64,000 nucleotides of DNA from positions 2,542,001-2,606,000 of the forward strand of contig NZ_JAPNKA010000001.1 of assembly GCF_026626635.1 (NCBI RefSeq), given 5' to 3'. The notes beneath the pieces were generated by a model. It did not search any database, was not told the DNA's origin, and saw only the letters and a program-made list of their open reading frames with translations. Within the stretch, counting starts at the first letter, position 1. Every line of letters begins with the position of its first letter. The DNA is from Archangium lansingense. GTDB lineage: Bacteria; Myxococcota; Myxococcia; Myxococcales; Myxococcaceae. Below are positions 10,086-12,445 of this stretch, one piece after another. The position numbers and the translations under genes were made by a program.

Positions 10086-10109
10086 TCACTCGTTGACGTC
10101 AACGAGTGA
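10086..10109. promoter_or_regulatory. 24-bp perfect palindrome, copy 1
   Basis: The half-site is TCACTCGTTGAC followed by its exact complement, centred on GACGTC. An identical copy lies 43 bp further on, about four helical turns, so two dimers could bind on the same DNA face. LacI-type operators share a central CG, but I cannot name the regulator. Confidence 0.65.
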
Positions 10110-10128
10110 TGTGGGTGTTTGTGGTATT

Positions 10129-10152
10129 TCACTCGTTGACGTCAACGAGTGA
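10129..10152. promoter_or_regulatory. 24-bp perfect palindrome, copy 2
   Basis: This is identical to copy 1 at 10086-10109, with a 19-bp unlike spacer between them. It lies about 190 bp upstream of the toxin lipoprotein start at 10344. The position and exact symmetry suggest an operator pair for the toxin/immunity locus. Confidence 0.65.
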
Positions 10153-10343
10153 GCGGTACTTTCCCCTGCCTCTGAATCAGTCCGCCTCAGCCCCTGTCGC
10201 TGCCAAAGGCGGCGGGCTCGCCTCTGCCGGCTCCGGCTCCGCCCCTGCTCGAGGGAGCCCTCTGCCCGGACGTCTACACGCGGACCGTGTTGTAGCCTCG
10301 AATCGAGCTCGTTGCGGATGGAGTCAATGCCAGGAGGCGCTGC

Positions 10344-11441
10344 ATGTCACGCGGGTGGGCCGTGCTGCTCTGCATGTTTCTCGTGGGGTGTAGCGGCGCT
10401 GCCCAGAGCGTCCGCCACGCTACGAGTCAGCAAGAGCGCTGCGTTTATGTCCCGCGCCGTTACGTTGCGTCGGGGGCACTGAAAGAAGCGTTTCATGCAG
10501 CTCGCGCTGGCGTGGAAGTGGTGCCTGTGGCGGCAGTGTTGGGGGCGGCTTCGCCAGCGGTGCCGCTGAGCCCACCCTCGTCACCTCCGTTGGAGGGGCT
10601 CTCTGGCGAGGGGTTGGGAAATGGCATACCACGCGGCGTGCTCCGGCTCGTGCCAGAAGGCGGCACGGCGGCGGGAGAAGTAGGGGCCGGTGGTGCGGCG
10701 GGAGAGCTCGTCGTCACTGGAGGCGCGGTTGTTGCGGCAGCCGGTAGTGTGCTCTTGCTCTGCTTGACCGTCGAGGCGGCCGTGGATGGGTCGGAGACCC
10801 CGATCGACATCGCGGACGAGTTCTACGGCACGCACTTCGGCGATGTGTCCGGGTGGGTCCAGGGTCAATATCCATTCAATGCACCCAACGGTGCAGTCAC
10901 AGGGGCTTCCAAGGCCCAAGCGGGACCGGCGTCCGCCACGCTCGCTCCTCCAGGCGCATCGCCAAAATCAGAACCAGGCAAGAATGACAAAGCAAGGCGG
11001 GGGCGCATATATGTGACCTACACGAGGCTCAATAAGAATGCCAACCGCTACTACGCGGGGCGAACCAGCATGGTCGTCGATCTCAACAAGTCCCTCAGAG
11101 AACAGGCGGCTCTGGCCGTTATTCTTCGATCGCTGAATCATCATATTGACGAGAACGACGAGCCGAAGGATGCTGGGTTCGACCCGCCGACGCTTGATCA
11201 ATTCGATGTCGGGGCCGCCATTGACTATGGCCGCAGATATGAAGACGCCGCATATTGGCGGATCCGCGGAAGAGAGCAGCAGTTGATTGATTCCCATGGG
11301 GGCGCCCAGTCCGACACCGGAAAGCCCTATCGGACCGAGAATGTCGTGCGCGGTGTGGCGAAAGACAATCCGCGGGGCAGGCGGTTTCACGACGCAGCCA
11401 CGGAGCGCTGGGGTCAATTTCATTCTTACACGGGATATTAG
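10344..11441 (+). CDS. Lipoprotein with C-terminal GIY-YIG-like nuclease toxin domain (SitA-like candidate)
   Basis: The 365-residue product starts with a lipoprotein signal (lipobox LVGC, Cys16) and is likely anchored in the outer membrane. Residues 100-150 are Gly/Ala-rich with a hydrophobic stretch, and 180-220 form a Pro/Ser/Lys linker. Residues 221-365 look like a separate tip domain. It begins RIYVTYTRLN and continues NRYYAGRTS, matching the GIY...YxG.T pattern, and later has RIRGREQQLIDSHGGA (306-321) and VVRGVAKDNPRGRRFHD. Immunity-type genes follow after three bases (TAG GAA ATG), as in polymorphic toxin loci. SitA toxins of Myxococcus xanthus are lipoproteins with variable C-terminal toxins passed between cells by TraA-dependent outer-membrane exchange. 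This gene fits that plan, but the assignment is inference, as is the GIY-YIG fold. Confidence 0.7.
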   Translation: MSRGWAVLLCMFLVGCSGAAQSVRHATSQQERCVYVPRRYVASGALKEAFHAARAGVEVVPVAAVLGAASPAVPLSPPSSPPLEGLSGEGLGNGIPRGVLRLVPEGGTAAGEVGAGGAAGELVVTGGAVVAAAGSVLLLCLTVEAAVDGSETPIDIADEFYGTHFGDVSGWVQGQYPFNAPNGAVTGASKAQAGPASATLAPPGASPKSEPGKNDKARRGRIYVTYTRLNKNANRYYAGRTSMVVDLNKSLREQAALAVILRSLNHHIDENDEPKDAGFDPPTLDQFDVGAAIDYGRRYEDAAYWRIRGREQQLIDSHGGAQSDTGKPYRTENVVRGVAKDNPRGRRFHDAATERWGQFHSYTGY

Positions 11442-11444
11442 GAA

Positions 11445-11906
11445 ATGAAGAAGGTGCGCATACATAGATCGGGGTCTTTTCTGAGGATTCCCCTCGCCGA
11501 CGGCACTTTTGGTTATGGGAGGGCGCTTACGCGCGTGTTTGATGCCTTCTACGAGTACAGGACCGAAAGCCCTGACTCGGACCTTGACCGGATCGCCTCC
11601 AAGCCCATCCTTTTCAAGATTGCTGTCCGCCATTTGGAGCCGAGCTCGTGGGAGGTCATTGGCCGGAGAAAGCTCGAGGAGTCCCTGGCTCAACCGATTG
11701 TCCAATTCAGGCAGGACGTGGGGGACTTTCGTCGCTGCGAGATCTTCGACACCGCCGACAATGTGAGAAGTGCCGAGCCCCAGGAGTGTGTCGGGCTCGA
11801 GCGAATGGCTGTTTGGGACGAGTACCATGTCGAGGAACGCCTGCTCGACACCTTCATGGGGCGGCCCAGTGGCATCGTGGAGCGTATGAAGGTACGCCTG
11901 CAATAA
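11445..11906 (+). CDS. Imm26-like immunity protein, copy 1 (cognate of the upstream toxin)
   Basis: A soluble 153-residue protein without a signal peptide. The N-terminus (RSGSFLRIPLADGTFGYGRAL) matches what I know of immunity protein 26: a basic start, then a hydrophobic strand, an IPL.DG..G.GR core and further beta strands. The ATG lies three bases after the toxin stop, and the junction TAGGAAATG supplies the ribosome-binding sequence, so translation is probably coupled to the toxin. It likely binds the nuclease-like domain and protects the producer cytoplasm. It differs from the second copy at about 27 of 153 positions (my hand count). The family call is from motif memory. Confidence 0.75.
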   Translation: MKKVRIHRSGSFLRIPLADGTFGYGRALTRVFDAFYEYRTESPDSDLDRIASKPILFKIAVRHLEPSSWEVIGRRKLEESLAQPIVQFRQDVGDFRRCEIFDTADNVRSAEPQECVGLERMAVWDEYHVEERLLDTFMGRPSGIVERMKVRLQ

Positions 11907-11929
11907 GAAACATCCGAATCCTGGCGCCC

Positions 11930-11980
11930 GACGCAGCCACGGAGCGCTGGGGACAGCTTCATCCTTGCACGGGATATTAG
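11930..11980 (+). pseudogene. Orphan toxin tail (last 16 codons plus stop)
   Basis: The codons for DAATERWGQLHPCTGY and a stop lie between the two immunity genes. They match the extreme C-terminus of the intact toxin (DAATERWGQFHSYTGY) with three changes. Nothing upstream of them resembles the toxin, so this is a scar of a second toxin copy whose body has been lost. The same TAGGAAATG junction leads into the second immunity gene. Confidence 0.8.
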
Positions 11981-11983
11981 GAA

Positions 11984-12445
11984 ATGACGAAAGTGCGCAT
12001 GCATAGACCGGGGACCTTCTTGAGGATTCCCCTCGCCGACGGCACTTTCGGATACGGGAGGGCCCTCGAACCACCGTTTGATGCCTTCTACGAGTACAGG
12101 ACCGAAAGCCCTGACTCGGACCTGGACCGGATCGCCTCCAAGCCCATCCTCTTCAAGATTGCTGTCCGCATTTTGGAGCCGAGCTCGTGGGATGTCATTG
12201 GGTGGAGAGAGATTGAGGAGTCTCTGTCTCAACCGATTGTCCAATTCAGGCAGGACATTGGGAGCTTCCGTCGCTGCACGATCTTCGACACCGTCGGCAA
12301 TTCGAGAAGTGCCGAGCCCCAGGAGTGTGTCGGGCTCGAGCGAATGGCTGTTTGGGAACAGCACCATGTCGAGGAACGCCTGCTCGACACCTTCATGGGG
12401 AGGCCCAATGATTCGGTGGAGCACCTGAAGGTACGTCTGCAATAG
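11984..12445 (+). CDS. Imm26-like immunity protein, copy 2
   Basis: A 153-residue paralogue of the preceding immunity gene, aligned without gaps, with the same RIPLADGTFGYGRAL core. Differences cluster at residues 28-31, 69-75, 95-110, 124-128 and 141-150, as expected if specificity surfaces diverged while the fold was kept. It follows a 16-codon relic of a different toxin tail. It therefore probably protected against an earlier or sibling toxin and was kept as an orphan immunity gene. A 7-bp hairpin lies about 60 bases after its stop. Confidence 0.75.
   Translation: MTKVRMHRPGTFLRIPLADGTFGYGRALEPPFDAFYEYRTESPDSDLDRIASKPILFKIAVRILEPSSWDVIGWREIEESLSQPIVQFRQDIGSFRRCTIFDTVGNSRSAEPQECVGLERMAVWEQHHVEERLLDTFMGRPNDSVEHLKVRLQ

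Follow-up and report, generated by a model that had tools for sequence, protein, structure and literature searches.

Does a lipoprotein gene of Archangium lansingense, followed by two antidote-like genes, belong with the SitA toxins that decide which myxobacterial cells count as kin? Six SitA families have been published, studied mainly in Myxococcus. The locus lies in a window of 64,000 nucleotides (positions 2,542,001-2,606,000 of the forward strand of contig NZ_JAPNKA010000001.1, assembly GCF_026626635.1, here G000:C1:2542001-2606000) of a 13.8-Mb genome. It encodes a lipoprotein with a SitA5-type leader and a nuclease-type tip, tied to its immunity genes, in a genome that holds TraA and TraB and an expansion of the family. 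We propose that it is a SitA-like kin-discrimination toxin acting by the full mechanism set out below, a reading to which we assign a probability of roughly two in three, and that its role is probably to tell clone-mates from strangers. That the locus pairs a nuclease toxin with an antidote is highly likely; delivery by outer-membrane exchange is likely.

The toxin and its leader

The 365-residue toxin begins MSRGWAVLLCMFLVGC-SGAAQSV... and carries the lipobox LVGC that the sequence-only reading had pointed out, with the cysteine at position 16. There are 295 homologues and many of the 120 listed align over their full length with 53-84% identity, so the open reading frame at 10344-11441 is not a chance one. 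The closest named relatives among the matches listed are from Archangium, Hyalangium and Cystobacter. Outer-membrane lipoproteins follow a rule of a lipobox with no lysine at +2 and no alanine at +7 (available text of PMC5562445). The window toxin has serine at both positions, and among 88 listed homologues with an anchored leader cysteine none has Lys at +2 and two have Ala at +7; the 32 listed homologues left uncounted are mostly sequences that begin within the protein, with a few whose cysteine escaped the anchor.

No Pfam family is matched by the toxin at E values up to 10. In NCBIfam it matches only SitA5_escort (NF050093; 13.7 bits, E 0.032, residues 8-46), as do 6 of 22 relatives, also weakly (best E 0.0019). 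With 13.7 bits, where the cut-off is 160, the toxin falls outside the SitA5 family, and it gives no match to the SitA6 model TIGR02269 at E values up to 10. A 22-row profile matched 29 of 145 genomes of the order. Eleven hold relatives of full or nearly full length; in 15, represented by one locus each, only the start of the profile matches (ending at 42-106) within frames of 329-721 residues, mostly 400-505. Eight of these start-only proteins were scanned with NCBIfam and all are SitA5 (328-395 bits, cut-off 160), and the other seven match a leaderless model of those eight at 295-392 bits.

Comparison of toxin-family residues 1-215 with the 15 SitA5-type proteins using hhalign gave 97.8% for residues 1-45 and no credible match further on, the middle region alone giving 0.04%. 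After removal of the signal peptides 14 of the 15 leaders still gave 95.9% over 32 columns, and 11 of the 14 scored above every one of 1400 shuffles, of which the highest reached 15.4 bits and the next 8.0. A motif search for the toxin leader among SitA5 proteins found none. By profile comparison the toxin leader is homologous to those of SitA5. A separate observation concerns 19 frames (289-749 residues; L035-L047 and six further places) whose match to the SitA5 escort model is limited to its second half (117-260 of 262), at 61-89 bits, below the cut-off; they are perhaps further SitA-like families.

A middle domain tied to one tip

The model of the whole protein is poor outside the tip (mean predicted local distance difference test, pLDDT, 53) and so we claim no fold for the middle region, in which a hydrophobic helix is predicted with low confidence at residues 123-147. 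Searched alone, the middle domain (residues 70-178) occurs in 11 of the 96 genomes of the family, in four genera, and at places that coincide with those matched by the toxin profile. Four places where it appeared to lack a tip, together with L013, were considered as carriers of some other toxin and rejected. The four hold pieces of the window-type tip, Imm26 or both, and comparison of these places found no other toxin tip. On these results the family looks non-modular, with the middle domain bound to one tip type. The converse fails: a frame of 2116 residues in G108, another genome from the 96, also contains a distant relative of the tip.

The nuclease-type tip

The signature residues of the tip are Y226, Y237xG239, R262, H266, R308xxE311 and N333; the window copy keeps all those of catalytic type, and the GIY-YIG-like pattern is conserved far beyond the A. 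lansingense genome. The predicted tip structure is confident and has a GIY-YIG fold, assigned with VIA-align. A Foldseek search of the PDB returned no significant match for the tip and sequence searches of the PDB nothing useful, whilst Pfam GIY-YIG (PF01541) gave weak matches (E up to 1) in 4 of 63 family members, the best at E 0.053. Distant conservation and the confident model thus bear out the GIY-YIG-like C-terminal domain seen in the sequence-only reading. That reading also took the tip for an unassigned toxin type, which it is not. The tip fits Tox-URI1, a toxin type published in 2012 for which Imm26 is one of the partners named.

The tip shares with Tox-URI1, as presented in the available text of PMC3482391, the residues Y, YxG, R, [RK]xxE and N, an Imm26 partner and, elsewhere, carriers with RHS repeats; RHS_repeat is found in 7 of 10 scanned tip carriers from other phyla. 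The delivery routes listed in that text are the type II, type V and type VI secretion systems (T2SS, T5SS, T6SS) and TcdB/TcaC, whereas the carrier here is a lipoprotein with a SitA5-type leader. By its residues and predicted fold the tip is probably a DNA-cutting nuclease domain. The pair of tip and antidote, and the general plan, are ordinary and already known.

Immunity genes

The toxin stop codon TAG is followed by GAA and then by the ATG of imm1 at 11445, so that an Imm26-like gene does begin three bases after the toxin. Both proteins exceed the Pfam Imm26 (PF15428) gathering threshold of 23.3 bits, imm1 with 48.9 bits (8.7e-13) and imm2 with 41.8 bits (1.4e-10). The Imm26 identity of the two immunity genes reported earlier therefore holds, but they amount to one gene duplicated: 126 of 153 residues are identical (82%). 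The gene imm2 starts after a gap of 77 bases and is preceded by a copy of the final 17 toxin codons, DAATERWGQLHPCTGY-stop. Tail plus imm1 and tail plus imm2 agree at 453 of 516 bases, and upstream the identity ends abruptly; on this alignment the pair is the product of a duplication. Non-synonymous and synonymous divergence (dN 0.106, dS 0.249) fit retained function.

Each of the 12 Imm26 genes in the genome goes with a copy of the window toxin. Ten follow a toxin match on the same strand at a distance of 22-34 bases, another follows at 1747 bases, past an insert with a transposase-like frame (recognized by eye), and the last is the window imm2 behind its own toxin-tail copy. Across genomes an Imm26-like frame follows the tip at 45 of 76 loci (13 of 14 myxobacterial, 32 of 62 others), by a model that was trained on these downstream frames and seeded with imm1 and imm2. 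This count is a recount by stop-to-stop frames, with L112 treated as downstream and L157 and L160 not; earlier limits had left 13 Imm26 matches outside, ten of them downstream genes that start earlier, the others (L112, L157, L160) starting before the tip match. As an independent check, Pfam Imm26 recognizes 21 of 24 non-myxobacterial downstream frames submitted (E up to 0.01).

At 28 loci the downstream protein is not Imm26-like. Of 25 compared (L087, L157 and L160 were left out) 23 form a cluster by phmmer single linkage, and we observe here a second immunity family, without a Pfam name, directly downstream of the tip gene (L107, L109, L110, L113, L119, L122, L131, L133, L144 and others). 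Presence of Imm26 beside non-myxobacterial tips follows the type of tip: it is there for 0 of 15 in which QQLID is followed by GG[IV]G or G[IV]G, against 23 of 29 with GG[AST]/GT[AST] (Fisher 2.4e-7), eight further tips being unclassified, five of them with Imm26.

Copies of the locus in the genome

The genome holds 11 toxin loci with an Imm26 gene. Five toxins, the one in the window included, are full length and six are broken or shortened: three are partial, one has its tip interrupted by an insert, another is split between two frames and the last is shortened internally. No stop interrupts any of the 12 Imm26 matches. Both inserts have a frame that by eye resembles a transposase; one is in the tip of the paralogue at L006 (G000:C1:3131878-3132764), the other between the split toxin and its Imm26 gene at L061 (G000:C1:7269655-7271402). 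A long frame at L011, with its end in the latter half of the tip, was rejected as a further carrier; it reads as a remnant of the toxin tail running into unrelated sequence.

Exchange machinery of the host

TraB is encoded at C1:12235285-12236847 (981.2 bits, cut-off 700) and TraA, of 676 residues, directly upstream (1064.9 bits, cut-off 750). It was the neighbouring TraB match, not matches to MYXO-CTERM, that revealed TraA. TraB was sought in the A. lansingense genome; TraA is over its cut-off in 62 of the 96 genomes of the family and in 11 of the 11 that carry the middle domain, with a chance of 0.006 on the assumption of independent genomes, which does not hold. Matches over cut-off to SitA5 (17) and SitA6 (eight, by TIGR02269, two with an internal stop) suggest that the host uses the SitA system. 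A second gene (G000:C1:11907562-11908551, minus strand) matches the N-terminal half of TraA at 461 bits over positions 1-327 of 666, the rest being absent; several relatives have similar partial matches, possibly a TraA-like receptor paralogue.

Proposed mechanism and alternatives

The locus has the marks of a SitA toxin: a lipobox in keeping with the +2/+7 rule, a tip predicted to be of nuclease type, an immunity gene directly downstream and a traAB host. Given the lipobox and sorting residues, the precursor would receive its lipid at Cys16 and travel to the outer membrane. On contact with a TraA-compatible neighbour it would be transferred by outer-membrane exchange, after which the SitA5-like leader, together with the middle domain peculiar to the family, would bring the C-terminal domain through the envelope to the cytoplasm. 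There the GIY-YIG (Tox-URI1-like) domain may cut DNA by means of a metal ion bound at Glu311 of the predicted fold. The Imm26 proteins, paired with the toxin by linkage, would bind and block the nuclease, and on this proposal clone-mates survive because of that block. Extra immunity copies, some behind a leftover piece of toxin, may protect against former or sister alleles.

How else might such a locus arise? A lipoprotein nuclease toxin with Imm26 could be borne by contact or by vesicles, for example by surface display or outer-membrane vesicles, and not by exchange. RHS proteins bear the tip in other phyla so the tip itself does not need exchange, and the middle region is unlike that of SitA5; yet the leader is homologous to that of SitA5, every carrier has TraA and the toxin has no Pfam domain of a secretion system, and we regard this route as unlikely. 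Against the idea of a decayed island, whose toxin copies are leftovers and whose immunity genes alone still count, stand the five full-length copies and the complete set of catalytic-type residues in the window copy. The majority of toxin loci being damaged beside stop-free Imm26 genes accords with decay, an explanation that we nonetheless hold to be very improbable.

A cellular GIY-YIG enzyme of DNA processing with its inhibitor, outside any conflict system, is scarcely credible. Such domains do serve repair and restriction, as is established (see also the available text of PMC3482391), but a housekeeping role sits poorly with a lipoprotein leader, with many variable paralogues in the genome, with a patchy presence (11 of 96 genomes) and with RHS carriers elsewhere. 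The SitA-like kin-discrimination toxin remains our preferred explanation.

Relation to known systems

In the available text of PMC8546572 SitA4, SitA6 and SitA7 are non-modular, with one toxin type per family and varying alleles, and the SitA4 and SitA6 alleles tested carry AHH nucleases. The family described here resembles all three in being non-modular (SitA4 and SitA7 are likened by description) but differs from the tested SitA4 and SitA6 alleles in its GIY-YIG-type tip. With SitA5 it shares the lipobox and first 45 residues, a C-terminal nuclease-type toxin, a downstream immunity gene and a TraA/TraB host; it differs in the middle 140 or so residues, unrelated by profile, and in having one toxin type instead of many. 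The SitA-like plan put forward at the outset thus stands as regards leader homology and the presence of TraA and TraB; it does not extend to membership of SitA5, the middle domain being unlike the SitA5 escort.

No Myxococcus-named row appears among the matches listed (120 of 295, many unnamed), which is weak evidence against this being one of the families defined in Myxococcus. Our literature search, whose scope excluded supplements and the original surveys of SitA families, found no SitA with Imm26 or Tox-URI1. Overall this looks like a new non-modular SitA-like family with a SitA5 leader and its own middle domain, on a profile comparison that covered SitA5 and SitA6. A further likeness, by description, is to TepC and TipC of Yersinia pseudotuberculosis. 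In the available text of PMC10833071 TipC, an Imm26 protein, alleviates the growth inhibition that the Mg-dependent DNase TepC causes, again an Imm26 antidote to a DNase-type toxin; TepC, however, is a T6SS effector, and no domain is assigned to it in that text.

Layout and upstream palindromes

Table 1. Features of the toxin-immunity locus, in window positions
Feature	Position	Strand	Basis
Lipoprotein toxin gene, 365 aa	10344..11441, stop included	+	Open reading frame call, homologues
Signal peptide, lipobox LVGC (Cys16) and leader to residue 45	10344..10478	+	SitA5-leader homology
Middle (escort-like) region, about residues 60-200	10521..10943	+	Profile comparison; model of low confidence
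C-terminal GIY-YIG / Tox-URI1-like domain, about residues 215-365	10986..11438	+	Conserved residues, model
imm1, Imm26 family immunity protein, 153 aa	11445..11906	+	Pfam match
Copy of last 17 toxin codons, duplication scar before imm2	11930..11980, stop included	+	Alignment
imm2, second Imm26 family protein, 153 aa, duplicate of imm1	11984..12445	+	Pfam match, alignment

The locus had been taken to start at 10086, but this is the edge of a palindrome pair and the gene starts at 10344. Two exact 22-bp palindromes, CACTCGTTGACGTCAACGAGTG, lie at 10087-10108 and 10130-10151, 43 bases apart start to start. Their 20-bp core occurs at 15 sites in the genome (up to two mismatches) against none for a reversed-pattern control, and 12 of the 15 form six pairs, 40-53 bases apart, near varied genes. 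From this pattern the pairs look like the operator of a putative regulon. Assignment to the toxin operon was set aside, as only the toxin locus in the window adjoins such a site.

Implications

What is new is a SitA-like family that has the SitA5 leader and a middle domain of its own and is confined to a few genera. The family also unites a lipoprotein carrier with a tip of GIY-YIG nuclease type and Imm26 immunity. A fuller interpretation, plausible although we stop short of favouring it, is a further SitA family, a natural mosaic whose SitA5-type leader became fused to a short, unrelated escort domain that is tied to a single type of nuclease. In that case the leader would serve as a general tag for the outer membrane and exchange, and entry through the inner membrane would be decided by the middle domain alone, along a route other than the ExbB1 route of SitA5. 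Within one genome, immunity genes are seen to outlive their toxins. The family may offer a natural separation of a possible exchange tag, the 45-residue leader, from the part that carries the toxin inward, by which the role of escort domains would become simple to test.
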